Below are positions 26,960-48,709 of a stretch of 64,000 bases of DNA, piece after piece. Made by a program: the position numbers and the translations under genes. The stretch's first letter is position 1, and the number at the start of each line of letters is the position of its first letter. Origin of the DNA: Paludibacteraceae bacterium (GTDB lineage: Bacteria > Bacteroidota > Bacteroidia > Bacteroidales > Paludibacteraceae); contig JAILLP010000024.1 of NCBI GenBank assembly GCA_024693065.1, positions 1 through 64,000 of the forward strand. The letters run 5' to 3'. Under the pieces are notes generated by a model. That model was not told the DNA's origin, did no database searches, and was given only the letters and a program-made list of their open reading frames with translations.

Positions 26960-28072
26960 ATGGAAGACTTCATCGTATCCGCAAGGAAATACCGCCCGAC
27001 CACATTCCTATCAGTTGTCGGTCAGAGTGCGTTGACCAATACGTTGAAACGCTCCATCTCCAGCAAACACTTAGCCCACGCATACTTGTTCTGCGGACCA
27101 CGCGGCGTGGGTAAGACCACCTGCGCAAGAATCTTCGCCAAGACAATCAACTGCATGAATCCCACTGCGGATGGTGATGCATGTAACGAATGTGAGTCGT
27201 GCAAGGCATTCAACGAACAACGTTCGTACAACATCCACGAACTCGATGCGGCATCCAACAACTCGGTGGACGATATCCGTTCCCTGATTGACCAAGTGCG
27301 CATCCCTCCTCAAATCGGACAATACAGCGTCTACATCATAGATGAGGTGCATATGCTTTCCCCTGCCGCCTTCAACGCCTTCCTTAAGACATTGGAGGAG
27401 CCACCCGCTCACGCAATTTTCATCCTGGCGACGACGGAGAAGCACAAAATATTACCTACCATTCTTTCCCGCTGTCAAATATATGACTTCAACCGAATGG
27501 GTATCGAAGACACCATCAAGCATTTGCAGATGGTGGCGGAAAAAGAGGGCATCAAAGCTGAAACGGAAGCCCTGGGCATCATTGCGCAGAAAGCGGACGG
27601 AGGTATGCGTGACGCACTCTCCATCTTCGACCAAATAGCGGCGAGCACGGATGGAAACATCACCTATCAAGGCGTTCTGGAAAACCTGAACGTATTGGAC
27701 TATGATTACTATTTCAAATTGGTCGACCTATTCTTCGCAGGGAAAGTCCCCGACAGTCTGCTGATATTCAACGAAATACTCAACAAAGGGTTTGAGGCGC
27801 AGAACTTCGTAAACGGACTAAGCTCCCATTTGAGGGATTTAATGGTTTGCAAAGACACTCAGACGATACAGCTATTGGATGTGGGGGCCAATGTGAAGGA
27901 ATTGTATCTAAAACAAGCGCAGAACGAGGCCTGCACGAACGATTTCCTCTACAAAGCACTGATGATCTGCAACCAATGCGATCTCAACTACAAAGCCAGC
28001 AAAAACAAAAGGTTGCTCGTTGAGTTGATGCTTATCCGACTTTGCCAATTGTCGGATGAAAAAAAAAAATAA
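26960..28072 (+). CDS. dnaX: DNA polymerase III gamma/tau, gamma-length reading frame
   Basis: Clamp-loader ATPase of the replisome. The 370 residues cover domains I-III: Walker A GPRGVGKT (46-53), zinc Cys65/75/78/81, Walker B IIDEV (126-130), arginine finger SRC (170-172) and the oligomerisation domain ending LMLIRLCQLSDEKKK. The frame then hits TAA inside or just after a run of 11 A (28059-28069). Bacteroides DnaX is a single ORF of about 600 residues, so this product is as long as a gamma subunit and stops exactly where the tau-specific part begins. The remainder continues in a different frame from 28056. Either slippage makes tau, as known for Thermus dnaX, or the run length is miscalled or mutated. 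Confidence 0.93.
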   Translation: MEDFIVSARKYRPTTFLSVVGQSALTNTLKRSISSKHLAHAYLFCGPRGVGKTTCARIFAKTINCMNPTADGDACNECESCKAFNEQRSYNIHELDAASNNSVDDIRSLIDQVRIPPQIGQYSVYIIDEVHMLSPAAFNAFLKTLEEPPAHAIFILATTEKHKILPTILSRCQIYDFNRMGIEDTIKHLQMVAEKEGIKAETEALGIIAQKADGGMRDALSIFDQIAASTDGNITYQGVLENLNVLDYDYYFKLVDLFFAGKVPDSLLIFNEILNKGFEAQNFVNGLSSHLRDLMVCKDTQTIQLLDVGANVKELYLKQAQNEACTNDFLYKALMICNQCDLNYKASKNKRLLVELMLIRLCQLSDEKKK

Positions 28073-28712
28073 TTGGGTAGACGATTGTTTCGCCGAAGAG
28101 ATTCCTCTCCAAATATTCTTGCCAAGCACAACAGCTCTCCGTCAAGGGACAAAACCCGCCACCAAGACGAACGGAGCGTCCATGCCACAAACAGCCCAAA
28201 ACACACAAGCGGCAACACAAACGAATGCGCTCCGCTCACCTGTCCAGAGCGCGAATAAGGCGATGACCTTCTCCATCAAGGACACGATGCAGAAAAAAGT
28301 GGAAGTGGAGGAGAAAAAAGCAGAGGAGACGGTGAATATAAGTGCGGAAAGAACGGAGTTCTCTCAAGAATCGCTCGTCAAAGTATGGAACAACTATACC
28401 CAATACACCAAAGACAAACCGGTGCTCCAACAAACGATACAACAATGCAAGCCTGTCCTCGGGACAGATTTCCGCATCATGCTTGCGGTCTACAACTCAT
28501 CCCAGGAGGAAATCATGATGGACGAAAGAATTCGGCTCGTGAATTACCTACGAAAGGAACTACACAATGGCGCCATCGAATTGGAGATTAGAATATGTGA
28601 GGCGGGCGACAACGTGAAGTCATACACCAGCAAGGAACTGTTTGTGAAAATGCTGGAGCACAACCCAAGCTTGTCAAAACTTACCAGGGAGTTGAATCTA
28701 GAACTATCTTGA
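28056..28712 (+). CDS. dnaX: DnaX tau-specific C-terminal extension (other frame)
   Basis: About 214 residues that continue DnaX in the +1 frame relative to the first part. A low-complexity Gln/Thr/Ala linker (about 30-75) is followed by a folded domain (SLVKVWNNYTQYTKDKP ... VNYLRKELHNGAIELEIRI ... LEHNPSLSKLTRELNLEL) typical of the Bacteroidota tau C-terminus, which contacts polymerase and helicase. Together with the first frame the total is near 588 residues, the expected full length. The first ATG (28056) overlaps the end of the upstream frame, but this is most likely not a separate gene. Removing one A from the run joins the frames. Confidence 0.85.
   Translation: MKKKNNWVDDCFAEEIPLQIFLPSTTALRQGTKPATKTNGASMPQTAQNTQAATQTNALRSPVQSANKAMTFSIKDTMQKKVEVEEKKAEETVNISAERTEFSQESLVKVWNNYTQYTKDKPVLQQTIQQCKPVLGTDFRIMLAVYNSSQEEIMMDERIRLVNYLRKELHNGAIELEIRICEAGDNVKSYTSKELFVKMLEHNPSLSKLTRELNLELS
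28059..28069 (+). other. A11 slippage site in dnaX
   Basis: Eleven consecutive A. With 11 A the frame ends at TAA (28070-28072) and gives gamma. With 10 A, or 13, it enters the tau frame. With 12 A it ends at TAG (28078-28080). So only certain slippage events make tau, and the encoded length makes gamma. Confidence 0.8.
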
Positions 28713-28728
28713 AATTGTCACAAAAAAA

Positions 28729-28760
28729 ACGCAGGGAGGCGAACACCCCCTTGCGTTTCC
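28729..28760. terminator. Bidirectional terminator after dnaX and the small gene
   Basis: ACGCAGGG pairs imperfectly with CCTTGCGT. It is followed by a T-rich stretch on the plus strand and by T8 on the minus strand, serving the convergent dnaX and small-protein genes. Confidence 0.65.
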
Positions 28761-34714: not shown

Positions 34715-36670
34715 CTATTCCTTTACAATCTTAACACACTGATTATCTACCACAAGGAAATATACACCTGAGGCATGCGGCAATGTAACCATCGCACATC
34801 CATCCTCATCAGCCCAACATGCAGAGCACAAAGAACCAATAGGCGTGTAAAGGCGGGCCACCGAGCCATCAGGCAATCCGGAAAGAGAAACTCTTTGATT
34901 ATCAACATAATAATAACTAAACGGACGACTACCCGATTCATCTTTCACAAACGTCAAAGAACCTTCCGGTACGGTCTTGTACACCATGAAGTTTTTCGAA
35001 GCTGGGCTATACACCAATGATTGGTACGGTTGTCCACCGGTACCCATCATCATCTTTATTGGCTGAACCGTCACCTTGTACTCACCCTCCTCCGCAAGGC
35101 TGTCGAGGATGAGGAAGACTGTTTCCCCTCGATAGGTGGTGTCCAACTGGCCACCGTCAAACAAAGTTTTCTCACTACCGAACGTCTCCCCGCTTGGCGT
35201 CTCGAACGACCAAATATATTTCACTGACGTGTCGGCTTGCATCAGATAGAGATCAACATCAACATTAAACTTGCCTGAATCCTTCTTGTTCGGCACATAA
35301 ATTGTATCAGGACACATGATTTTCATCACCTGTGACCCACAGCTCTTACCTACTACCTCAAATTCAACTGGCATATCTATCGGATGTCCTTCGTCACTCT
35401 TCACACGGAGTTTCTTTTTGCCAATCCAATCAACAGGAATGGTGATGGACTGTTTATCCATTCCTCTCTGCACAAAACCACCCACATACAAAGGTTGCCA
35501 TATACCGTTGTCGCAACGTTCCCAGATGTATTCCGCATTCCTTGGGAACCCAGCGGCTCTCACATTGACATCCTCTCCCACACAGGCCTCCTTGTGACCC
35601 AAGGAATAGCCAGATGCATCTGCGGAGATGTAGTCGATCGCCACCGTGGCGCATGATGGCCATTGCTGGAACTCCGGATAAAACAGCAGTTCCTCATTGT
35701 ATTGCGTTTCGAATTGACCATAGAAACCAATCTCCATACGAATCAGACGATGACCATTCCTCATAAAATCATACACATCACTACCCAAAACGACGGAGTG
35801 ATCTAGGAGGGTACCATTCGCACAATCCTCATAATTCTTCAAGTGTTGACCTGTTTCACCGTCATACATCTCAACATCCACGCACAATTCAACCGGAGTA
35901 CCGAAGCTGGTCCGGAAGTTCACCTTCGCCTGATCATCAAAATCACGACAATCAGTGACGTCCAAATAAAGACGCATCGTAAAACGGAACGTCTTATCCA
36001 GGTACCTATCCCTGTCGAACGTCAGGAAGAATGGTGTATTGTTACAACTTGCCCCACTGAAAACATAGTAATAGTTCTTGCCGACCACGCCCTTTACAGA
36101 GTCCACATCAGTCGTTTTCCAACCCTTCACAACCTTTCCTGCCGAACAACATTGGAATCGGATACCATTCGCTGCGAAGTGGTTCTCCAAACAATAGTTA
36201 TCATTATCGAAACTAATCTGGCTCTCGTCACATCCGTTAAACGGGTTGAAGTCCGTACCCAAATAAAAATCGTCCGTTGTCGTCAAGTAATTGATTCCTG
36301 GGCAATCATTGTCCACCCCGATTGTGACACCATTACTCTTTAGGGTAGAATCCGTTGCGTCAACAAACTGGTACATCACCTGTCGGTCAACCATTACATC
36401 CCCAAACGTATATACGCCCGACCTGTCTTTCGAGATGGAACCGATCGACGTCCATGTGCTTCCGTCAAATGACCGGTAAACATCTACCACATCACCCACA
36501 GAGTACCCACTGTCCACTCTGGCGTTCAACATCAACGGTTCATCCACACATGCCACCGTGTCCATGGTCCCATTGACCATCAACGTCATAGCTTTCTGCG
36601 CATTCACAACAACAGAAAGCAGGGAGAATACAAAAACCACTAAGAAACGATTTAGAAGGGAAACACCCAT
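34715..36670 (-). CDS. T9SS type A surface protein, paralogue of the giant protein's N-terminus
   Basis: 651 residues from the ATG at 36670 (MGVSLLNRFLVVFVFSLLSVV then VNAQ as signal peptide); upstream codons add a non-signal stretch. Residues ~25-560 match the N-terminal ~560 residues of the protein at 36829-48411 along the whole length (ACVDEPLMLNAR, VYRSFDGSTW, LGTDFNP, CATVAIDYIS, VSGVDWIGKKKL-type segments). The last ~60 residues (ARLYTPIGSLCSACWADEDG ... GVYFLVVDNQCVKIVKE) look like a T9SS type A sorting domain, unlike the type B tail of its larger neighbour. It has Cys-rich Ig-like segments and no catalytic motif. Confidence 0.88.
   Translation of the reverse strand: MGVSLLNRFLVVFVFSLLSVVVNAQKAMTLMVNGTMDTVACVDEPLMLNARVDSGYSVGDVVDVYRSFDGSTWTSIGSISKDRSGVYTFGDVMVDRQVMYQFVDATDSTLKSNGVTIGVDNDCPGINYLTTTDDFYLGTDFNPFNGCDESQISFDNDNYCLENHFAANGIRFQCCSAGKVVKGWKTTDVDSVKGVVGKNYYYVFSGASCNNTPFFLTFDRDRYLDKTFRFTMRLYLDVTDCRDFDDQAKVNFRTSFGTPVELCVDVEMYDGETGQHLKNYEDCANGTLLDHSVVLGSDVYDFMRNGHRLIRMEIGFYGQFETQYNEELLFYPEFQQWPSCATVAIDYISADASGYSLGHKEACVGEDVNVRAAGFPRNAEYIWERCDNGIWQPLYVGGFVQRGMDKQSITIPVDWIGKKKLRVKSDEGHPIDMPVEFEVVGKSCGSQVMKIMCPDTIYVPNKKDSGKFNVDVDLYLMQADTSVKYIWSFETPSGETFGSEKTLFDGGQLDTTYRGETVFLILDSLAEEGEYKVTVQPIKMMMGTGGQPYQSLVYSPASKNFMVYKTVPEGSLTFVKDESGSRPFSYYYVDNQRVSLSGLPDGSVARLYTPIGSLCSACWADEDGCAMVTLPHASGVYFLVVDNQCVKIVKE
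34984..36620 (-). repeat. Long direct repeat shared with 46725-48340
   Basis: About 1.6 kb of the 651-residue gene is closely similar in DNA and protein to the start of the giant gene (46725-48340), in the same orientation. Both copies lie in coding sequence. Recombination between them could delete about 11.7 kb. Confidence 0.85.
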
Positions 36671-36783
36671 AGAAAGAAGGTTCTGATTACACGCCATACC
36701 AAAATGATTAATTAAAAATTGCATTCAGATTGCAATATTAATCAAAATTACACAAAAATCCATTTCTTGTAAGAAAAAAAAAC

Positions 36784-36828: not shown

Positions 36829-39800
36829 TTATTTAATCTTAACAATCTCTACCGAACCTTTCATCACCGTACCGTCAATCATGATAACCTCATAGAAGTA
36901 GACACCAGGATCAGCACGATGTCCGTTATGAGTACCATCCCAACCATTCTGGCCTTGGAAAACCTTCTGCCCGTAGCGGTCAAAAATGGTGACAGGATGA
37001 CGTTCCATAAAGTAGTCATTCAAACCATCTCTCACAAACGGAGTAAAGGCGGTTGGAATACGCGTTATAACATTCACACGGATCAAGCTACTAGCTGCCG
37101 AAGGACAAACACCATCATTGATGACCACGTAATAGTATGCGGTATCCATTGGCATATCCTCGATATAAGAATTCTCCGCAGTGCCAGAGAACAGCAATTC
37201 GTCCTCCTCATCGTCCAATTCTATACGAGTCGAATCATCATCATAATAATAATCATAATTCGATGTCAGATTGTCATAGAACTCTCGGTCGTATCGGTTA
37301 ACCACCCTATACCACTCAGTAGATTGGAAGTTATATCCTGTCTTCAGCTTCAGCGTGACAGCCTCACCTCTCCATATCCTAACAGGGTTACTAGGCTCCG
37401 TCTCCACTAAGATACTATCCGGACTATAACGTTTGTGGATGTCCAGCAGGATAGAGTCAGACACATACAACATATCCCTCTTGAAGAGATCATATCTATC
37501 GGCGGAACCGAAGAACTTGATGGAATCCTCCTTGGTCTTTTTCCCAAAGTCATCACCGTCACACAACATGAACAAAGAATTGAGAGATGTCGTAGTACCA
37601 CATCGGTTCTCCAGCACATAAGAAAGGCTCTTTCCGTTATATGAGCGATCCATCAACCCCTTGATGCTATCCTCGAACTCAAACGGAACGCTATCGAACG
37701 TCCAATAAGAAGAGGACAGAGGCGCACCCATATCAGACTCGCAGACCACATATGGGTTAAGATCCAACATGTTCCTTTCGCACTCGGAAAGATTCGCACT
37801 AGAGAGTCGGACACGAGGTTTCTCCGCAATGTTGATATAGGCGGTCGCCGTATCCGTACAACCCGTGGTGGTATCCATCGCCACAAACGTATAATAGTCG
37901 CTTTGATCTCTCCTCGTCAATGAAGTCAAAGCATACTGGGCCTTCTCGAACGATCCATAACGTGAAATCATATTCGCGAAACGATGAAGATTCGTGTACG
38001 GGTTATCACTGAACATCAGCATATCATTGTTCACGGACGATCCCCTATAGTAATCATAACTAAACACACTAGGGAGTTGTCGAATCTTACCATTCCACAG
38101 TTCATCCAAGATAAATCCTCTTGCGAAACGCACATTCTGCGTCGCCAATGAGAACGAAACCTCGGAAACGCAAGTATCCAAATCATTAGCCTCCAATGTG
38201 ACAATCGTAGCAGGCTGCTGGACGATCACGAATCTAGAAAGGCTATCCTTATTGCCACACTTATCGATCGCATAAATCCAGACCCTCAAGGAATGGTCGA
38301 TACGAGTGCCCGCTTCAGGATTCTGGATAATCGTGATATCATTGTTTTCCGTACAATCGTCGGAAACGAATTCACGGGCATCAATCGTCATGTCAGGCAC
38401 ACCGAAGATACAAGCCTTGAAATTCTTGGCGAGGACAGAATCACGCCACCCATCAGGGACACTGAATTTCGGTCCGACCGTATCACGGATAGAAATGACC
38501 TGAACGAATTCAGACTCATTACCGCAACGATCGACAGCCACATATTTTCTGAATATGTCATAACTAGAATAATCGCAGGAAGAAGGATCGCTACTTCTGT
38601 TATTCGTTTCACTGACCGTAACCGTCGGATTAGGGTCGCAGTTGTCGACAGCCTTCAATGGTACGGCAGAGAATACATCCTCGTTACATGTCAGGATTGT
38701 ATCCCGCAAAGTGCCGAAGAGAATCTGAGGAGCGGTGGTATCCTTCACCTTCACAACTTGTGTGCAATAGATATCATTGTGACGGAAATCCTCCACATGA
38801 TAGGTTCGCGTATACGTCATTTCACAAGAGTCACCCTCATAACGGTTCTCAAAATAGAACGTATTCTCCAACATTTTCTTCTCATCTCCGAACGAACCTC
38901 CCGCATTCTTAAAGGAAACGAAATCAGCATATGGCTCCGGGATATCATCGATACAAGAGAACACCTTGCCTTCCAAATCGGAAGGACAAATAAGTTCCTC
39001 GATCAACCAATCCTCCACGAGAACCACCTGAGAACAGATCCGTTCGTTACCGGAAGAATCTCTGAATGTCCATGTAATATCAACAGGATCACCCAACACA
39101 TAATTATCCTTCAAATCCTTACCATCACTTCTGGTAGCCTCAGCGACAATCACGCCATCACAGGAGTCCTTCACTTCAGGTACCTCTAATCCAGCCGTGA
39201 CAACTTCCTCATAGGAAACCTCCGTTTCGGAGACTGAAGTCATCGTGATACGTACCTTAATCGTATCCTTCAACGTTTCGCACAAGAACTGAGGAGGGAA
39301 GGTATCCTTCACAATCACATTCTGAGGACAAGTCTTAGGTGTAACGCTATATGGACTATCAAATGTCCAATCCACCACCGTGACACCCTTCGGATAGACA
39401 TCCGTCAAGTTCATGTTGTCACGGCGAACGCCCACACCAGGGACATCCGTACCCGTGCAAGAATCCTTAGCGACAGGCACATCGATCACGAACTTGCCAT
39501 CAGGCAGCTCGCACTGATCCAACTCAAGATAAAGGATCGTATCCTTCAAAGCGGAGCAGTCGAACAAAGGCTCAGCCGCACCCTTCACAGCGACGGTCTG
39601 CTCACACACTTTAGGAACCGCATTCAACAACGAGTCTTGGAAGATCCAGCGGATGAACAACGTGTCGCCCACCTTAACGGAGACCTCATCCACAGAGAGG
39701 CATCCACCATCCTGGGAAGGAGAAGCAGACGTGCCGTCAGGGGAGATCACGTTGCAGACATACGCTCTACCATGCACCTCAGCATTCGTACAAGAGTCTA

Positions 39801-42800
39801 TCGCCACAGGATCGCCCAGGAAGAGTTTCAACTCCTCCGAGGAGACATCACACAAGCCCGGTTTAGCCACCATGACAGTATCCTTCAACGTCGAGCAATC
39901 GAATGCAGGTGCCACGGAATCCAGCACCAGCACGCCTTGAGAACAGGTGATGACCTGTCCGAAGAAATTATAGTTCCAATATATCGTGTCCGGTCCGACC
40001 GTAAAGCTCTCTTCCATCTCCTTACCCGACCAACGAGTCAAAGTAGGCGTAATCAAGGAATCGGAGCATAGGTCACGAACATCCGGCACCGTGAAATTGA
40101 TTTCATTCCAGGATATTTCGCAGTCGGTAGCCGGCAGGATGATTGTCGTATCCGGCATATTCTTACAATCCACCGGCATCTTATTCACATCACCCACACG
40201 GACGACAGTGAAACAAGTATCTACATTCTTGTACATCGTTCCCGAATTATCAGTGAAGATCCAGGTGACAACCGTCAGACCCGTACGGAACGAGTCAGTA
40301 ATCGCCCTGTTATCCGAGCGGAAAGGAACACCCCAAATCGTATCCACCTTGGATTGGTCAGGACACGGATGCAAAGCGAATGGAGTCTTGATATCTACGG
40401 CAGAGTAGCATTGGCCCTCCTCCACATCCACGTCAATCGTATCCCCGTTCACATCGGTACAATGCAAGTCCAATTCCTGCTTCGTCAAGACCGTAATGTC
40501 TTGGATACAAGTATCAGCCAAAGTTGAATATGGGCTCACAAAGATCCAACGAATGGAGGTCGTACCCACAGGATAAACTCCATAAAGGTCTCCCTTATCC
40601 AATCGCATACCCACACCTGGGACGGAATCATTCGTACAAGCATCCAACGCATATGGAGTTTTGATATAAGACTTGCCAAGCGTCGTGTCGCAACCCTCAA
40701 TCAAAAGAGGCTCTTGCTTCAACGAATCACAATCGAAGATAGGAGCTTGATCGCCCATCACCAACAAATATTGGGAGCAGGTATCCGCCAACTCGTTGAT
40801 GGTTTCATCGATAAAGATCCAAGTCAGGATATGTTCGCCGACAGGGACGATGAAGGAAGAAGCCTTCGTCAACTCCTGGCCATCCTCCAAATAGACACGT
40901 CCGTCTATCTTCTGTTGGTTGCAGGCATCCTCAGCCTGTGGCCACGGATTAGGGAGGGAATCGAACACCGCACTGGAATTAGCATAACACTTACCAGGAA
41001 CGGCAGGCACGATGATTGGTTGCAAATCCTTACAATCATAAATAGGGATCATGCTATCCTTCACCGTGATGACCTGATCGCACACGAAGATCTGTCCATG
41101 GAAAGAGTAGGTCCATCTAATGGTATCCACACCCACAGTGAAGTCATCCGCCGTAACAGAAACGATCGTATCACCATTTTCAACAGAAGTAACAGCCGTC
41201 AGTTTCTTACCGGAAGACCTCGTCACCACAGGGTTAATAATCTCATGAGAGCACAAATCAACCACACCTGGAACATCAATATCCATTTCCTTCCAAGAGA
41301 TTTCACAATCATCAGGGCTCAAACGATATACTTTGTCAGGGAAGTTCTCACACTTGACAGGCATCTCGTTCACGTCACCGACACGAACCCACTGTGAGCA
41401 AGTCATCGTGTCATGCAAGAGTGTATGGGACGGATCGATGAAAGTCCATACGATCTCGGACAACCCGACATAGAAGGAAGAGTCCATAGACATTCCGAAG
41501 CGACGGGAAGGAACACCCCAGATCGTATCCACGCCCGACTCAGCCGGACAAGGATGCAGTGCGAACGGAGTGACGATCTTATCCTTCACTTTCGATGCAT
41601 CCACGGTACAATCACCTGGTTTCACATCCACCTTGATGGTATCCTTGTTCAAGGAGTCACAATTAAAGATCATATCCAAGGATGTCTTCACCACGATATC
41701 CTGCACACAAGTATCCTTGATCGTGTTCGTGAAATCAGTGAAGACCCACTCAATAGTAGTTATACCCAGGTTGAACGCCGCATCAAGCGGTTTATCGTCC
41801 GAACGGGTACCCACACCCACACTCCAATAATTAGGGTCCTCCTCAGAAAGGATACATGGGTTAACCACCCGAGGCGTATCGATCACGAAGGTCAGCGGAT
41901 CTGTCGGACCGCAGTCAGCCAACGTGTCACGACGGGTAGGCGTAAGCTCATCACACTTCAAGTCGAAATGCTTATTACCCAAGATGGTGACCTTTTGGTC
42001 GCACCACAACGTATCATTGATGTTCCAAGGACTGACAAACATCCAACGGATATCCGTCTCACCCGTATGGAACAACGTGTTAATAGGGAGTTTATCGGAG
42101 CGGAATCCATACGCCTCATACTCACCCTCGAATCCAGAAAGTAACGCACACGTATCTGTTGCTTTCGGTATTTTCAGTTTCAAGTTCTCAGCGGAGATGG
42201 TACAAGCATCGGCATCCGCATAGGCTGAAGTATCCTTGATCGCACTACAATCATACTTGATATTGTTCGTATGGGAAGGTATGATATACTGCGGACAAAC
42301 CGTCTTATTACCATCCTCATCCGCGAAAAGCCAAATCAACTTATAAGTGATACCCACCTGCATTGTGTAGTCGTCAGGGAGCTCCCTTTCACCCGTCAAG
42401 GTAAGTATACCCGGCACAGAATCTCCTGTACAAGCATCATATGCCTTGTATGACAACTTATCGAGGACATCATGCTTCAAGTCAGCGAATTCAATCTCGC
42501 AATCACCCTTATAGGCCTCAGGACGCAATGTGTCCGGGTCAATATCATCACAATCGAAATACGGAGACGTATAATCATGTACAATAACCGACTTCTTACA
42601 ATCAACCCAGTTGCCTGTATTATCTGTGAAGATCCAACGCAACATCGTCAAGCCCTTAGGGAACGGATCCACATCCCACATGCGGGAAACTCCATCAGCC
42701 ACTAACGTCGTGTCGTAAGTGAAGCCAACCGTATCCCCTGCGGTTCCAAGCACTGCTGAGGAATCAATGAAATAACGTTCTATGACAGGCGTCATCCAAG

Positions 42801-45800
42801 AGAGACCCGTCTGCGCCATATAATCGTCGCACTCGTCGTAAGCCTTCGGCTCACGGATATGCGTCTTCACATTGTCCGGATCGATGGCGCAGATATCCCC
42901 ATCGACGGTCAAATGGATTAACGGATCGACATCACAATCCTCCAAAACCGGCTTGCCATGGTCAACTACCGTCAGATTCATCTGGCAAGTATCCAGGTTC
43001 TCCGCATTGTCCTCATAGATCCACAGGAAGGTATGCGTACCGACAGGATATGTCACACTCTGCAACTCATCATTGTAATAGAGTTGATAGGAACCATCTG
43101 GCAGGTAAACCTTAGCCTCCACTGTCGGATAAATATCACCATCACAAGGGTCGACAAGCACCATGCTATCCAATGGTGGCAATTGCAACTCATCATACGG
43201 AACGGCGCAATCGACATCAGCCGACACCTCCTTCGTAGGAGGAGGGCAAATACCCGATGGATCCGGAGGCGTAGTATCCTGAATGGTCAATTTTTGGTTA
43301 CACTCCAACGTGTTACCGGACAAATCGGTAAATGTCCATACAATCGTATAAGTAGTATCTTTCTTGAAGGATTGATACATATCCACATATACAGTATCAC
43401 CTGGGAGAAGCACATGAGGCACGCCTGGGATCTCTCCGTCACAATCATCTATCGCCGTGTTGGAACCGAGAGCAGCCTCCACCATGTTTTTCGATGCCAC
43501 ACACATCTCACCCGGCAACTTTATTATGGTCTCCTCCAACTTATCGCACTTCGCAAAGACAGGAGCCGTTCTATCCTCCACGATCACGTTTTGGGTACAT
43601 ACTGTCTTGTTACCCACCGCATCGGAGAACGTCCAAGTGATGATCGTGGTGCTTCTCGGATAAGGATCAGAGAAGATATCCTTGCCGTCGCTACGGACGC
43701 CAACACCAGGGATCGGCTTGCCTGTAGGAGAACACTTGTCATCCACAGCGTAAGGAATATCGAGTCCGGCAGCCTGAGCCGAGCTAGCGGCCGCCTCACA
43801 GTTCGTTTCAGTCTCTACCACAATATCCTTTAGCAACGAACAATCATACGCAGGACCCGTGGTATCAACAACTGTAATCTCCTGCTGACAGAAACTAGTA
43901 TTGCCCGAAGCGTCCGTCACATACCAGGTCATGGTCGTTACACCTATCTGAAGAGGATCCGTCAATGCCACATCCGCCGTGACATTAAACTTTCCGAAAT
44001 TCCTGTTCCACGTAATCGTGAAATCGCTTGGATCGGATGAGCAATTATCCTTCACATTCAAATCATCCACCGTAGGTTTTCTGAACCAAGGAACATCCTC
44101 CACAGGAACGACGCAATCATCGTTCGCATAGAGTGTCGAGGTCTTGTTCCAATCGGCACATTCCAAAGTTGGAGCGATGGTATCCGCCACCTCAATACGG
44201 ATCACACAACTATCCAGCTGCAGACCATTCTCTTCATTTTGGAAACGATATACCAACGAATAAACACCCTTCGTCAGTGTCTCGTTCATGATCACATCCG
44301 AGAAGTTGTTCTTCACCTTCACCGCAAGTGTACGACAGGTGTAGAATTGATCTCTACACTCTTCACCGTCCACACCACCTTTCTTATACCAACGTGGCGC
44401 AATGATACGGGAAGGAACCACATCCTCGCTCGAATATGCGTTCTGCGCCTTCTTCACCGTTTTACCCAACGAGTCGATCAATTCCACCTCGAACGGATAA
44501 CCCGAGTACATCATTACGGAAGTCAGTTTATTAGACTCAGACAACACCTTCTCCTGTGCACATTCGCTATTACTCCAGTAGGTCCATTTGTTCTCAGGAG
44601 ACTCCTTGAAGGTGTTCCAATTATCATAGCCCTCGCACAATTTCGAGATCGTCAGATCATCCGTGGTATGCTCGTTCGCACCAGGACCGCCAGGACCGCC
44701 AGGACCACCAGGGCCTGCATTAGTGTATTTCACCTGCAAGTCACTGATCTTATTAGGGAAATACTGTGCGACATCGGAACAACCCGTCTCGTCTCCGTTC
44801 GATCCGAAATGTTTTCCTTCAATCATACAATGGCGGAAGTTGAACCACAGACCCTCCTGGTTGACAGGGATTTGGGCGGAAGGGACCTCCGATTTGGACA
44901 ATGTAAACGTAGCCTTGCAATCCTTGTCCGCATAGAGCACGAGATTCGGATCAGGACACTCCGGGATAGGCGTCGTACCAGCCGTCACAATGACACTTTG
45001 GGTACAAACGGCCTGGTTGTCATTCACATCAATGAACGTATAGGTGATTGTGCTCAGACCCACATAGAATTCATGGTTCTCCAAATCGCTTAATTTCTTG
45101 ACGGTAGTCTTCACCTCTCGACCGGACTTATCCGGTCCTAAAATGGTTATCAACACCTCCACCTCACCATCGCAGTTATCCTTCACCTCAGAAGGCTGAA
45201 CCATACGGATATCTCCGTTTGCGAAGGCATCTTTCAATGTACCCGTATAGATAACATCCTCTCCATTCCACTTGCCTGCGACATCATCCTTAGTCGCATA
45301 ATCCAGATACTCATACCCCCTGTTTTTAGGCTTATACGAATTGGCTGTCACACGAACCGTAGGCAAAGAGGAACAATCGAAATAAGGCTCCTCCGTATCC
45401 CTCACCGTGAACGTCTGCTTACAATCCTCGTAAACATTATTTCTGTCGTTCAGCTTATAGAAGCGCCATATGATTTCGTAACTCTGGTTCACATAGAAGA
45501 TGATATCGTCGAAATTACCATCATGCACCTCAATAAAATCAGCGTCTTTGACATCCCTGTAATAGACAACTGGCTTCAACGGAGAACCGACGGTACAAGT
45601 ATCCTTTGCGGAAGGGAACTCCTTCATCTGCGAAATCAACGCATTGACGGACAATCCACAGTAGCCAGGCTTGTTGCTGACCTCACCGAGATTCAAGTCA
45701 GGACAAGTGACCACTGGCGGGCGGTCATCCACAACAACGACTTTCTGCGTACAATAGGCAGGGTTACCCGACGCATCCTTAAATTCCCAAAGGATGTAGG

Positions 45801-48411
45801 TCGTACCCACCTGGTAATTATCGTTCAGGGCAACTCCTGTGCTGAACAAGGCGAACAACGGTGGATTAACGGTAGGAACAGAAGAAGGATTCAAGACACG
45901 TCCCCTGTACGTACCCGTGATAGTTCCATCCACTCCGTTCAAATCAGTCAGCTGAGGAGGTACAATCGTAGGCAATGTAGCCGAATGGTGGTTCGGTTCC
46001 GCATCGCAGCCCTCCTGCAACGACAGTTTCGTCGTGTAGCTTGGTATCGCATCACAATCCAACCTCGGAGGATTTCCATCCACCACCTCGATGTTTTTCT
46101 TACAAGATGCGACATTACCACAACCATCTATCACCGAATAAGTTACAGTACCCGTTCCAGCAGGGAGGGATACCATCTTCTCGATGGAGATCATTTCCGA
46201 AGCCTTCCCTTCGAATGTCTTACTGATGGCACTGCCCGTCTTCGGTGTGAATACGACATCGATTTTCTGATTCGGATTCGTCTCACAACCAGAAGTATAA
46301 TTAGAAGGGAATGAGAAATACACATCCCTTGTTTTTTCCGTCTCACCCAAGCTGAACGAGAGATCCTGAACGGACTCGCAATTGATGGTCGGCTTCTCTA
46401 CCTTGCCAACCTTCCATGTCTGTGTGGCGGTGGTAGGACATCCCACGCCAGTGATACTCACATCCACCGACATCCTATGGTTCTTATACGAACCATCGCA
46501 AGCGCCCAACGCCGGGAGATTAACAGTTGTCTCATTCCTCTTCCCAAGCTTTCCATCGTTCCACGTATAACTATATTTGTTCACGTAGTTGGAATAGAAA
46601 CCATCCTTCACATCAGCGACAGCCACCACCTTCTGGGTCTTATCTGTAGGGCAAAGTTCTATCTCAGCCTGCGCCAACGGATCCGTGCCTTCCATATAGA
46701 CTTGCACCTGAGGGGTCTTATATACCATGAATGTCTTCGAGATCGGACTACCCGCCAAAGCCTGGTACGGTTGTCCGTCGGTACCCATCATCATCTTTAT
46801 TGGCTGAACCGTCACCTTGTACTCACCCTCCTCCGCTTTACTGTCGAGGATGAGGAAGACAGATCCGCCTCGATAGGTGGTATCCAATTGACCTCCGTTG
46901 AACAAAATTTTCTCACTACCGAATGTCTCCCCGCTTGGCGTTTCGAACGACCAAGTATATTTCACAGACGTATTGGCATCCATCGGGTAAACCTCAAACT
47001 TACCAGCGTTCTTCGAATTCGGTATACAGAACGGATTGGAAGGTCCGTTGATTCCCGTCGGTTGAACAGGCTCACAGTTCTTACCCGTCACCTCGAACTC
47101 GATTGGTTTATCTATCGGATGTCCATTGTCACTCTTCACGCGGAATTTCTTTTTACCAATCCAATCGACATGGATGGTGATGGACTGTTTATCCTTTCCT
47201 CTCTGCACGAAACCACCCACATACAAAGGCTGCCATGCGCCATTGTCGTAACGTTCCCAGATGTATTCCGCATCCTTAGGGAAACCGGCGGCGTTCACCT
47301 CAGCATCCTCACCTACGCAGACCGCGCCACGTCCCAAGCAGACGTTAGCCGCCTCACCAGAGATGTAGTCGACCGCCACTGTGGCACAAGATGGCCACTG
47401 CTGGAACTCCGGATAGATCTTCAACTCCTCTTGGTTCTGTGTCTTGAACTGACCATAGAAGATGATTTCCATACGAATCAAACGATGCCCATTCCTTGCG
47501 AATCCCCATATATCACTACCCAGGACGACAGAGTGGTCAAGGTGGGTACCTCTCGCACAATCCTCATAATCCCTCAAGTGTTGACCCGTACTTCCGTCAT
47601 ACACCTCGGCATCCACACACAAATCGACAGGGTTACCGAAACTCGTACGGAAGTTCATCTTCGCCTGTTCATCAAAACCATTGCAATTGGTGAGGTCCAA
47701 GTAAAGACGCATCGTGAAACGGAATGTCTTGTTCAGGTATCTACCCCTATCGAACGTCAGGAAGAATGGTGTATTGTTACAGTTCCCACCATTGAAGACA
47801 TAGTAATAGTTATTGCCAACCACACCTTTAGCCACGTCCACATCGGTTCTCTTCCAACCCTTCTCCACATGTCCACCCGAACAGCCTTGGAAGATGATAC
47901 CATTCGCGGCGAAGTGGTTCTCCAAACAGTAGTTATTGTTATTGAAACTGATATCACTCACGCTACATCCGTCAGAAGGGTTGAAGTCCGTACCCAAATA
48001 GTACTCGCCCGTCGTAGTCACGTGACAGATCTCAGGACAATCATAATTCACACCGATGGTGACGTCATTACTTCTTTGGGAAGGATTTGCTGGGTCAACA
48101 AAGCGGTACATCACCTTCTGGCTGACCATCTCCTCCACAAACGTATATACGCCCGACTTGTCTCTCGTGGTGGAACCAATCGCCGTCCACGTGTTTCCGT
48201 TAAATGACCGGTAGACATCTACCACATCACCCACAGAATACCCACTGGCCGCTCTGGCGTTCAACACCAACGGTTCATCCACGCAAGCCACGGTGTTCAT
48301 GGTTCCATCAACCATCAACGTCATAGCATTCTGCGCACTCAAGGACATAATCCCCAGCGACATGACAAGCAACGCCCCCAAGCGCATGCTAAATTTGGAA
48401 AACAATTTCAT
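36829..48411 (-). CDS. Giant T9SS type B surface protein, about 3860 residues
   Basis: Starts at the ATG at 48411 (MKLFSKFSMRLGALLVM ... LSAQ, signal peptide). Residues ~25-560 duplicate the protein at 34715-36670. From ~600 to ~3200 come about two dozen HYR/Ig-like repeats of roughly 80-110 residues, each with a pattern like DCxxLKDT, PxAxDxC, GVGxRxD, VGxTxIxWxFxDxSGN and CxQxVxVxD. A (GPG)4-type tract lies near residue 1230. The last ~75 residues (TRIPTAFTPFVRDGLND ... VTIFDRYGQKVFQGQNGWDG) form a CHU_C domain directing T9SS type B export. The frame is open over 11.6 kb without a break. It is probably a very long surface adhesin stiffened by many disulfide-type Cys; the ligand is unknown. 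Confidence 0.92.
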   Translation of the reverse strand: MKLFSKFSMRLGALLVMSLGIMSLSAQNAMTLMVDGTMNTVACVDEPLVLNARAASGYSVGDVVDVYRSFNGNTWTAIGSTTRDKSGVYTFVEEMVSQKVMYRFVDPANPSQRSNDVTIGVNYDCPEICHVTTTGEYYLGTDFNPSDGCSVSDISFNNNNYCLENHFAANGIIFQGCSGGHVEKGWKRTDVDVAKGVVGNNYYYVFNGGNCNNTPFFLTFDRGRYLNKTFRFTMRLYLDLTNCNGFDEQAKMNFRTSFGNPVDLCVDAEVYDGSTGQHLRDYEDCARGTHLDHSVVLGSDIWGFARNGHRLIRMEIIFYGQFKTQNQEELKIYPEFQQWPSCATVAVDYISGEAANVCLGRGAVCVGEDAEVNAAGFPKDAEYIWERYDNGAWQPLYVGGFVQRGKDKQSITIHVDWIGKKKFRVKSDNGHPIDKPIEFEVTGKNCEPVQPTGINGPSNPFCIPNSKNAGKFEVYPMDANTSVKYTWSFETPSGETFGSEKILFNGGQLDTTYRGGSVFLILDSKAEEGEYKVTVQPIKMMMGTDGQPYQALAGSPISKTFMVYKTPQVQVYMEGTDPLAQAEIELCPTDKTQKVVAVADVKDGFYSNYVNKYSYTWNDGKLGKRNETTVNLPALGACDGSYKNHRMSVDVSITGVGCPTTATQTWKVGKVEKPTINCESVQDLSFSLGETEKTRDVYFSFPSNYTSGCETNPNQKIDVVFTPKTGSAISKTFEGKASEMISIEKMVSLPAGTGTVTYSVIDGCGNVASCKKNIEVVDGNPPRLDCDAIPSYTTKLSLQEGCDAEPNHHSATLPTIVPPQLTDLNGVDGTITGTYRGRVLNPSSVPTVNPPLFALFSTGVALNDNYQVGTTYILWEFKDASGNPAYCTQKVVVVDDRPPVVTCPDLNLGEVSNKPGYCGLSVNALISQMKEFPSAKDTCTVGSPLKPVVYYRDVKDADFIEVHDGNFDDIIFYVNQSYEIIWRFYKLNDRNNVYEDCKQTFTVRDTEEPYFDCSSLPTVRVTANSYKPKNRGYEYLDYATKDDVAGKWNGEDVIYTGTLKDAFANGDIRMVQPSEVKDNCDGEVEVLITILGPDKSGREVKTTVKKLSDLENHEFYVGLSTITYTFIDVNDNQAVCTQSVIVTAGTTPIPECPDPNLVLYADKDCKATFTLSKSEVPSAQIPVNQEGLWFNFRHCMIEGKHFGSNGDETGCSDVAQYFPNKISDLQVKYTNAGPGGPGGPGGPGANEHTTDDLTISKLCEGYDNWNTFKESPENKWTYWSNSECAQEKVLSESNKLTSVMMYSGYPFEVELIDSLGKTVKKAQNAYSSEDVVPSRIIAPRWYKKGGVDGEECRDQFYTCRTLAVKVKNNFSDVIMNETLTKGVYSLVYRFQNEENGLQLDSCVIRIEVADTIAPTLECADWNKTSTLYANDDCVVPVEDVPWFRKPTVDDLNVKDNCSSDPSDFTITWNRNFGKFNVTADVALTDPLQIGVTTMTWYVTDASGNTSFCQQEITVVDTTGPAYDCSLLKDIVVETETNCEAAASSAQAAGLDIPYAVDDKCSPTGKPIPGVGVRSDGKDIFSDPYPRSTTIITWTFSDAVGNKTVCTQNVIVEDRTAPVFAKCDKLEETIIKLPGEMCVASKNMVEAALGSNTAIDDCDGEIPGVPHVLLPGDTVYVDMYQSFKKDTTYTIVWTFTDLSGNTLECNQKLTIQDTTPPDPSGICPPPTKEVSADVDCAVPYDELQLPPLDSMVLVDPCDGDIYPTVEAKVYLPDGSYQLYYNDELQSVTYPVGTHTFLWIYEDNAENLDTCQMNLTVVDHGKPVLEDCDVDPLIHLTVDGDICAIDPDNVKTHIREPKAYDECDDYMAQTGLSWMTPVIERYFIDSSAVLGTAGDTVGFTYDTTLVADGVSRMWDVDPFPKGLTMLRWIFTDNTGNWVDCKKSVIVHDYTSPYFDCDDIDPDTLRPEAYKGDCEIEFADLKHDVLDKLSYKAYDACTGDSVPGILTLTGERELPDDYTMQVGITYKLIWLFADEDGNKTVCPQYIIPSHTNNIKYDCSAIKDTSAYADADACTISAENLKLKIPKATDTCALLSGFEGEYEAYGFRSDKLPINTLFHTGETDIRWMFVSPWNINDTLWCDQKVTILGNKHFDLKCDELTPTRRDTLADCGPTDPLTFVIDTPRVVNPCILSEEDPNYWSVGVGTRSDDKPLDAAFNLGITTIEWVFTDFTNTIKDTCVQDIVVKTSLDMIFNCDSLNKDTIKVDVKPGDCTVDASKVKDKIVTPFALHPCPAESGVDTIWGVPSRRFGMSMDSSFYVGLSEIVWTFIDPSHTLLHDTMTCSQWVRVGDVNEMPVKCENFPDKVYRLSPDDCEISWKEMDIDVPGVVDLCSHEIINPVVTRSSGKKLTAVTSVENGDTIVSVTADDFTVGVDTIRWTYSFHGQIFVCDQVITVKDSMIPIYDCKDLQPIIVPAVPGKCYANSSAVFDSLPNPWPQAEDACNQQKIDGRVYLEDGQELTKASSFIVPVGEHILTWIFIDETINELADTCSQYLLVMGDQAPIFDCDSLKQEPLLIEGCDTTLGKSYIKTPYALDACTNDSVPGVGMRLDKGDLYGVYPVGTTSIRWIFVSPYSTLADTCIQDITVLTKQELDLHCTDVNGDTIDVDVEEGQCYSAVDIKTPFALHPCPDQSKVDTIWGVPFRSDNRAITDSFRTGLTVVTWIFTDNSGTMYKNVDTCFTVVRVGDVNKMPVDCKNMPDTTIILPATDCEISWNEINFTVPDVRDLCSDSLITPTLTRWSGKEMEESFTVGPDTIYWNYNFFGQVITCSQGVLVLDSVAPAFDCSTLKDTVMVAKPGLCDVSSEELKLFLGDPVAIDSCTNAEVHGRAYVCNVISPDGTSASPSQDGGCLSVDEVSVKVGDTLFIRWIFQDSLLNAVPKVCEQTVAVKGAAEPLFDCSALKDTILYLELDQCELPDGKFVIDVPVAKDSCTGTDVPGVGVRRDNMNLTDVYPKGVTVVDWTFDSPYSVTPKTCPQNVIVKDTFPPQFLCETLKDTIKVRITMTSVSETEVSYEEVVTAGLEVPEVKDSCDGVIVAEATRSDGKDLKDNYVLGDPVDITWTFRDSSGNERICSQVVLVEDWLIEELICPSDLEGKVFSCIDDIPEPYADFVSFKNAGGSFGDEKKMLENTFYFENRYEGDSCEMTYTRTYHVEDFRHNDIYCTQVVKVKDTTAPQILFGTLRDTILTCNEDVFSAVPLKAVDNCDPNPTVTVSETNNRSSDPSSCDYSSYDIFRKYVAVDRCGNESEFVQVISIRDTVGPKFSVPDGWRDSVLAKNFKACIFGVPDMTIDAREFVSDDCTENNDITIIQNPEAGTRIDHSLRVWIYAIDKCGNKDSLSRFVIVQQPATIVTLEANDLDTCVSEVSFSLATQNVRFARGFILDELWNGKIRQLPSVFSYDYYRGSSVNNDMLMFSDNPYTNLHRFANMISRYGSFEKAQYALTSLTRRDQSDYYTFVAMDTTTGCTDTATAYINIAEKPRVRLSSANLSECERNMLDLNPYVVCESDMGAPLSSSYWTFDSVPFEFEDSIKGLMDRSYNGKSLSYVLENRCGTTTSLNSLFMLCDGDDFGKKTKEDSIKFFGSADRYDLFKRDMLYVSDSILLDIHKRYSPDSILVETEPSNPVRIWRGEAVTLKLKTGYNFQSTEWYRVVNRYDREFYDNLTSNYDYYYDDDSTRIELDDEEDELLFSGTAENSYIEDMPMDTAYYYVVINDGVCPSAASSLIRVNVITRIPTAFTPFVRDGLNDYFMERHPVTIFDRYGQKVFQGQNGWDGTHNGHRADPGVYFYEVIMIDGTVMKGSVEIVKIK

Positions 48412-48709
48412 AATGAAACGTTTTATGTTTTTCTCTACAAATACTATATTCATCTCAAAACCAGATAATTGTCGTTATCTATATAAAAACCGAAACTCTT
48501 TCCTCCAAAAGCTCAACTTTTGTGTGTGTTTTCCATCTTTTTTCTTCTAGTCATACTACACTGCGTAACAAGGAGAAAAGAAGCCCATCTATACACTCAA
48601 TGGACAAAAGTAATGAATTAGAACCAAACAAAAAAGTTTTTTCCACCTTAGATTTCACACACATTAGCATTTCCTGGACATCTCTCCATGGACATCCAAT
48701 AGACTATTG

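Follow-up and report, generated by a model that had tools for sequence, protein, structure and literature searches.

How could a cell obtain both the gamma and the tau product of DnaX from a gene whose reading frame breaks off exactly between them? A 64,000-nt stretch of DNA from a Paludibacteraceae bacterium (the window) raises this question. On its forward strand, the gamma frame of dnaX (26960..28072) encodes the clamp-loader ATPase and domain III in 370 aa, and would be read from unslipped transcripts. It enters a run of exactly eleven A (28059..28069, forward strand), where the junction reads GAT GAA AAA AAA AAA TAA, and ends at this zero-frame TAA (28070..28072). The tau-specific C-terminal part of 213 aa follows on the same strand in the +1 frame (28071..28712). 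Residues 1-368 of the upstream frame match positions 1-366 of PRK14971, the NCBIfam DnaX model (7.9e-224), and residues 31-212 of the downstream frame match positions 432-613 of the 614 in that model (1.3e-24); because both halves match one model, they are separable gamma and tau parts of DnaX. An earlier note on this DNA had claimed that dnaX is split by an A11 run exactly at the gamma/tau boundary, and the letters and the two model matches confirm it.

The products that the note had assigned to each A count also follow from reading the sequence. With 11 A the frame ends as gamma, and with 10 A the two frames are joined, by arithmetic, into 583 aa (the tau frame is likewise reached with 13 A). 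With 12 A the ribosome would read ATA ATT GGG and stop at the third-frame TAG (28078..28080, forward strand). The same TAG is met, after three codons, by a -1 ribosomal shift from the gamma frame, which consequently cannot yield tau, as the note had argued; -1 ribosomal shifting was set aside as a candidate. The genome holds one full dnaX match and five weaker ones, all partial. The tau part has a dN/dS of 0.05-0.12 against the three nearest species with unsaturated dS (L007, L008 and L009), the only ones used, as dS was saturated against most species. Just downstream of dnaX, at 28733-28751 on the reverse strand, lies a terminator-like stem with a T tail; such sites in the region do not exceed those in shuffled sequence.

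Of the 16 genomes of the genus, 14 yielded a dnaX match, and every one of these is split at the same junction, with A10-A12. Eight of these carry A11 with tau in the +1 frame, four carry A10 with tau in +1, and two carry A12 with tau in +2. G003 and G010 had no match, and G014 was matched over residues 132-369 only. The note had regarded a homopolymer error as the main alternative to a real split, and this 14/14 result rules it out in that role. Runs of A11 or longer occur at five places in the window's own genome, the dnaX junction among them. Three of the other four lie outside any open frame of at least 90 codons, and the fourth (L324, T14), although inside a stop-to-stop frame that is open, precedes the first ATG of that frame. 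One of these other runs comes after a hairpin and resembles an intrinsic terminator. Across the dnaX genes at 246 loci, runs of at least nine A were found at the junction in 178 and elsewhere only twice in 396,575 nt. The A11 at the gamma/tau junction is more than chance.

Some further features of the window and its genome were seen along the way. A T12 behind a hairpin (L326, G000:C36, at about 9556) looks like an intrinsic terminator. The window also encodes a 3874-aa repetitive and probably secreted protein (36829-48453, reverse strand) and, beside it, a 669-aa protein with a similar start (34715-36724), with an A9 between the two at 36774-36782. A search of a plasmid collection returned zero matches.

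The run was compared across 310 distinct loci, the number left after two duplicates were dropped from an uneven draw. Relatives up to order level contributed 56 loci (61 genomes, 55 with a match, G049 supplying two), and named loci were the best 80 of 594 candidates ranked by match to the window. A phylum sample contributed 110 loci; 116 of its 118 genomes, the window's own included, had a match, and G156, G082, G128, G172 and G085 were left out. The last 66 loci came from the window's family, some of them hand-picked, in part for their short frame; in the family search, 33 of 143 matches had an open frame below 480 aa, some of them through contig ends. The tau frame was set to 0 where the gamma frame continues for at least 480 aa, or for more than 375 aa up to the end of the stretch. 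In earlier counts on 178 loci it was taken as the longest open frame, by which one long in-frame gene (L157) was miscalled.

The earlier note had proposed aligning the run across related genomes, and this comparison shows the run to be kept at the junction in 232 of the 310 loci (A9 in 42, A10 in 132, A11 in 51, A12 in 4 and A13 in 3), although differences in A count among draft genomes may include assembly errors. The frame behind it wanders. Tau lies in frame 0 in 146 of the 232 run-bearing loci, in +1 in 26 and in +2 in 60; 228 of these labels rest on at least 120 open codons, and four are shortened by the end of the stretch or contig. The phylum sample, the most even part of the draw, carries at least nine A in 81 of 110 loci, with frames 0, +1 and +2 in 49, 1 and 31. 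The +1 form is concentrated in the window's family, which holds 22 of the 26 cases, against 1 of 81 in the phylum sample. A tree of the gamma part for 233 loci requires at least 42 changes of frame, compared with 74-83 in 20 shuffles of the labels, and among 80 loci of the family at least 13 changes are required, some of them between sister species (L022 has A12 and +2, L028 has A11 and +1). Run length changes 26 times on the family tree. Split genes make up 86 of 233 run-bearing loci, and the first A of the run falls in each of the three codon phases (135, 60 and 38 loci).

Relatives with a plain reading frame and no run had been named in the note as grounds for doubt, and that doubt applies in part. 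In the family, 20 of 100 loci lack a run of at least nine A, but 48 of the 80 run-bearing loci have an uninterrupted ORF and yet keep the run. Among all 78 loci lacking the run, 71 are in frame and 3 are cut by a contig end. Two of the rest are split into +1 (L059, from G037, and L119); they end in ...CGA TAA C and ...TGC TAA A, which may reflect +1 shifting at the stop codon or an error of assembly. L139 stops after 366 codons with the same frame reopening behind the stop, and L075 ends after 441 codons. In two genus codes of the family, g22 and g122, none of the six loci read (three each) has the run; L278 is truncated by the contig end and the other five are in frame. One bin (G049, 79% complete) holds two near-identical junctions, L052 and L061, where one has A9 and then a G and the other has A10; the two differ by a base exchange and not in length, which probably reflects two strains in one bin.

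The placement of stops around the run, which the earlier note had thought looked designed, is borne out statistically. Both off-frames stop within six codons in 152 of 178 run-bearing genes, compared with 9.9% of 3508 control positions further downstream in the same genes. Each off-frame is also enriched singly (160/178 and 169/178 versus 26% and 36%). In the final set the double stops are found in 207 of 232 loci, the other 25 having no stop within six codons in at least one off-frame, and the phylum sample alone has them in 68 of 81. At the equivalent place in in-frame genes without the run, only 8 of 71 carry them. The closing of both frames does not fit a one-directional ribosomal shift, as this would need only one stop. 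The dnaX junction carries a conserved recoding signal.

Directly 5' of the run, the window's sequence folds into a hairpin with its 5' arm at 28033..28040 and its 3' arm at 28051..28058 on the forward strand, the final base of the latter standing immediately before the first A. Its energy is -10.3 kcal/mol (z -4.18), and none of 200 shuffles was as stable. When a 27-nt window was slid along 97 loci, the mean MFE was -5.90 kcal/mol at the position ending exactly at the run, whereas elsewhere in the same 97 genes it was mostly near -2.5 and at lowest -3.77 kcal/mol; 3' of the run this sliding window found no energy trough. Of 75 hairpins with an energy of -3 kcal/mol or lower, 64 have their end 0-3 nt ahead of the run. 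On the downstream side, the 60 nt after the run in the window are unremarkable as a stem loop (z 0.15), and so are the 27 nt after the run over 178 loci (mean z -0.11). An Rfam scan found no known element here and no dnaX element; its two matches were both at chance level.

Since the stretch is protein-coding, synonymous codons were resampled at each gene's own usage, and native energies were ranked against the resampled ones. By this control the hairpin falls in the lowest 5% in all 14 genus loci and in 48 of 80 loci of the window's family (f1), where three control sites gave 3, 6 and 3 of 80. By this measure, selection on the hairpin in this family goes further than codon choice. In small samples, 7 of 8 loci of f29 (control 1) and 2 of 7 of f39 (control 0) rank equally low, and no hairpin selection was seen in f40 (0/25, control 2) or f46 (2/14, control 5). 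The other order and named loci reach the lowest 5% in 15-16 of 72, with control sites at 3, 11, 1 and 7 of 72. A hairpin common to the whole phylum was rejected, as the phylum sample failed the same control (12 of 81 versus 12, 9 and 4 of 81 at control sites); the feature holds for f1 and f29, perhaps for f39, and weakly for the order and named loci. As judged from these resamplings, the hairpin is bound to certain lineages. Split genes have a stronger hairpin than in-frame genes (z -2.58 and -1.38), by values that ignore kinship.

Covariation was assessed in 73 distinct ungapped family sequences over a seven-pair stem, against 500 shuffles that ignore kinship. Pairing is found in 74.2% of stem cells versus 66.6 +- 1.1 in shuffles, and 44 cells are changed on both sides versus 23.7 +- 3.5; neither value was reached by any shuffle. 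The covariation score of 0.263 compares with 0.176 +- 0.014 (0/500) and falls to at most 0.125 when the stem is slid by 1-3 columns. Pairs changed on both sides (6 versus 4.4 expected, reached by 46 of 500 shuffles) and further pair types (14 versus 12.6, reached by 93 of 500) were unremarkable. The third base of an Arg codon faces the first base of another codon as U-A in 25 sequences, A-U in 18, C-G in 2, G-C in 2 and G-U in 1, and is unpaired in 25 of 73. Where the two bases pair (48 sequences), the codon opposite encodes Thr in 23, Ser in 19, Ala in 2, and Pro, Leu, Asn and Met in 1 each, so that amino acids change along with a silent or near-silent Arg base. RNAalifold found no consensus structure or pairs in the 73-row alignment, and the case for the hairpin is accordingly made by energies of single sequences, by the codon-preserving control and by the pair counts.

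Could the split be explained without any slippage during expression? If a homopolymer sequencing or assembly error had turned a true count of 10 into 11, the gene would be a plain tau ORF. This is a draft assembly in 37 contigs, and the earlier reader shared this doubt; we nevertheless regard an error as extremely improbable, given that every dnaX match in the genus and the many other split loci share the junction, that the stops around the run are conserved and that in the window's family the hairpin is too. The tau C-terminal part might instead be a separate protein, made by internal initiation or by coupling at an ATG (28056-28058) of the tau frame that overlaps the gamma frame's end. This ATG is real in the window, but when the tau frame is followed from the preceding stop to 45 nt beyond the run, 56 of 86 split loci offer no ATG, GTG or TTG, 16 of 86 only GTG or TTG and 14 of 86 an ATG; moreover, the run-bearing loci of the family are mostly in frame, and tau is therefore encoded there as a fusion. 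Separate initiation is thus very unlikely. We give equally little weight to phase variation of the DNA, in which replication slippage would alter the run and toggle tau between cells. Run length does vary between species, as the family tree records, but tau is expected to be needed by the cell and yet the split state is genus-wide, and such toggling explains neither the double stops in in-frame genes nor the hairpin.

The main and serious rival is sliding of the ribosome over poly(A), as described for AAA codons (PMC4363877). A ribosome that slid over consecutive AAA codons and left them in any frame would draw gamma and tau from a uniform A11 mRNA. It would be as indifferent to frame as a slipping polymerase, would permit the genomic frame to drift and would profit from double stops. 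Against it stand the position of the hairpin, which lies 5' of the run and touches it, the place where it would help a polymerase; the unstructured downstream side; and the three codon phases in which the run starts, which leave no fixed AAA register. Ribosome sliding as the source of both products appears unlikely to us, although it could add to polymerase slippage.

We consider it highly likely, from these comparisons, that the window's dnaX is functional and would make gamma and tau by programmed transcriptional slippage. The sequences themselves show the split, a conserved run, stops in both off-frames, a drifting frame and a covarying hairpin; from these we infer that the polymerase, rather than the ribosome, would be what slips. 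RNA polymerase would realign on the A11 and release mRNAs with differing A counts. Faithful copies would stop at once and give gamma of 370 aa, transcripts that had lost one A or gained two would be read through into tau (583 aa at ten A), and copies in the third frame would stop after three further codons, giving a gamma-like product. One template would thereby supply all three frames, two of them yielding gamma or a near-copy and the third tau, and both products would presumably be made in useful amounts. With every frame available from a single template, little would hold the genomic frame in place, which would explain its drift; if mRNAs arise in all three frames, stops are needed in both off-frames, which would explain their conservation. 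The run of 10-11 nt would fill the RNA-DNA hybrid, which measures 9-10 bp (PMC5009743), while the hairpin of the window's family, ending 0-3 nt before the run in the nascent RNA, would fold immediately behind it, in the manner of an intrinsic terminator, and probably stimulates slippage. The earlier note had preferred transcriptional slippage to a -1 ribosomal shift, and the comparison, with a kept run, tau frames that wander among 0, +1 and +2 and two closed off-frames, supports that preference, the mechanism itself being deduced from sequence.

A close published counterpart is dnaX of Thermus thermophilus, where transcriptional slippage occurs on an A9 run in the sense strand (PMC1088944, PMC5009743). 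By its published description, the Thermus gene shares with the window a run of at least nine A, stops in both off-frames, and gamma and tau from a single gene. It differs in that its unslipped mRNA gives tau, whereas here it would give gamma; the frame-0 relatives (146 of 232) match Thermus in this respect. The window's run is also longer than the A9 described for Thermus and has a hairpin abutting it, and the review in PMC5009743 sets Thermus dnaX apart from stem-loop-dependent slippage. A stem loop 5' adjacent to the motif stimulates polymerase slippage in the Roseiflexus IS630 element (Penno et al. 2015, as related in PMC5009743). The two share a nascent-RNA stem loop directly 5' of the motif, in a terminator-like geometry. 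The Roseiflexus case, as the review gives it, involves a T5C5 motif, loss of a single base and a transposase, whereas in the window the motif is a run of A alone within a replication gene, where bases would be expected to be lost or gained. That type, in the review's account, has a heteropolymeric T5C5-type motif and no slippage without the stem loop; by analogy the window may work in the same way without being classed as a member, its run being pure A. In E. coli, dnaX uses a -1 ribosomal frameshift on A_AAA_AAG, with a Shine-Dalgarno-like element on its upstream side and a hairpin downstream (PMC3711429). Gamma and tau come from one gene there too, but in the window a -1 shift gives no tau and a downstream structure was not found.

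The paper of 2013 on two-ORF dnaX genes is that of Antonov et al. As a kind of gene, two-ORF dnaX has been known since that report, which describes 17 of them, all in the -1 direction, with poly-A in 12 of 17 and 10 A in nine, and already proposes transcriptional realignment (PMC3711429). As in those genes, tau lies here in a second frame and requires recoding; the published ones are -1 (+2 in our notation), unlike the window, which is +1, and 60 of its 232 run-bearing relatives are of the -1 (+2) type. According to a rule given in the same paper, mixed directions of shift among orthologs indicate transcriptional realignment (PMC3711429). The orthologs compared here shift in different directions, which by that rule points to a transcriptional event. 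The passages on these genes in PMC3711429 mention no frame drift, no runs in in-frame genes and no dnaX hairpin. Among the titles and opening lines of abstracts listed by full-text searches, no report of the +1 form, frame drift or a hairpin in Bacteroidota dnaX was found. What is new here is the +1 form, the phylum-wide drift of frame and the hairpin.

With moderate confidence we extend these observations to the phylum as a whole: its dnaX would be indifferent to frame, slippage on an A10-type run being so efficient that the downstream frame is near neutral, and in some families, the window's included, a covarying hairpin between an Arg codon and a codon mostly for Thr or Ser would serve specifically to stimulate the slippage of RNA polymerase on a homopolymer within an essential housekeeping gene. 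If this is true, a large gut and environmental phylum would depend, for an essential replication gene, on polymerase stuttering and not on a fixed reading frame, and gene callers would report the gene as broken, gamma-only or tau-only according to a near-neutral base. Strong slippage would have made the reading frame in the DNA cease to matter, with a cis-acting RNA stimulator of homopolymer slippage possibly added. The phylum would then offer a natural comparative data set for the old question of why cells retain gamma beside tau.
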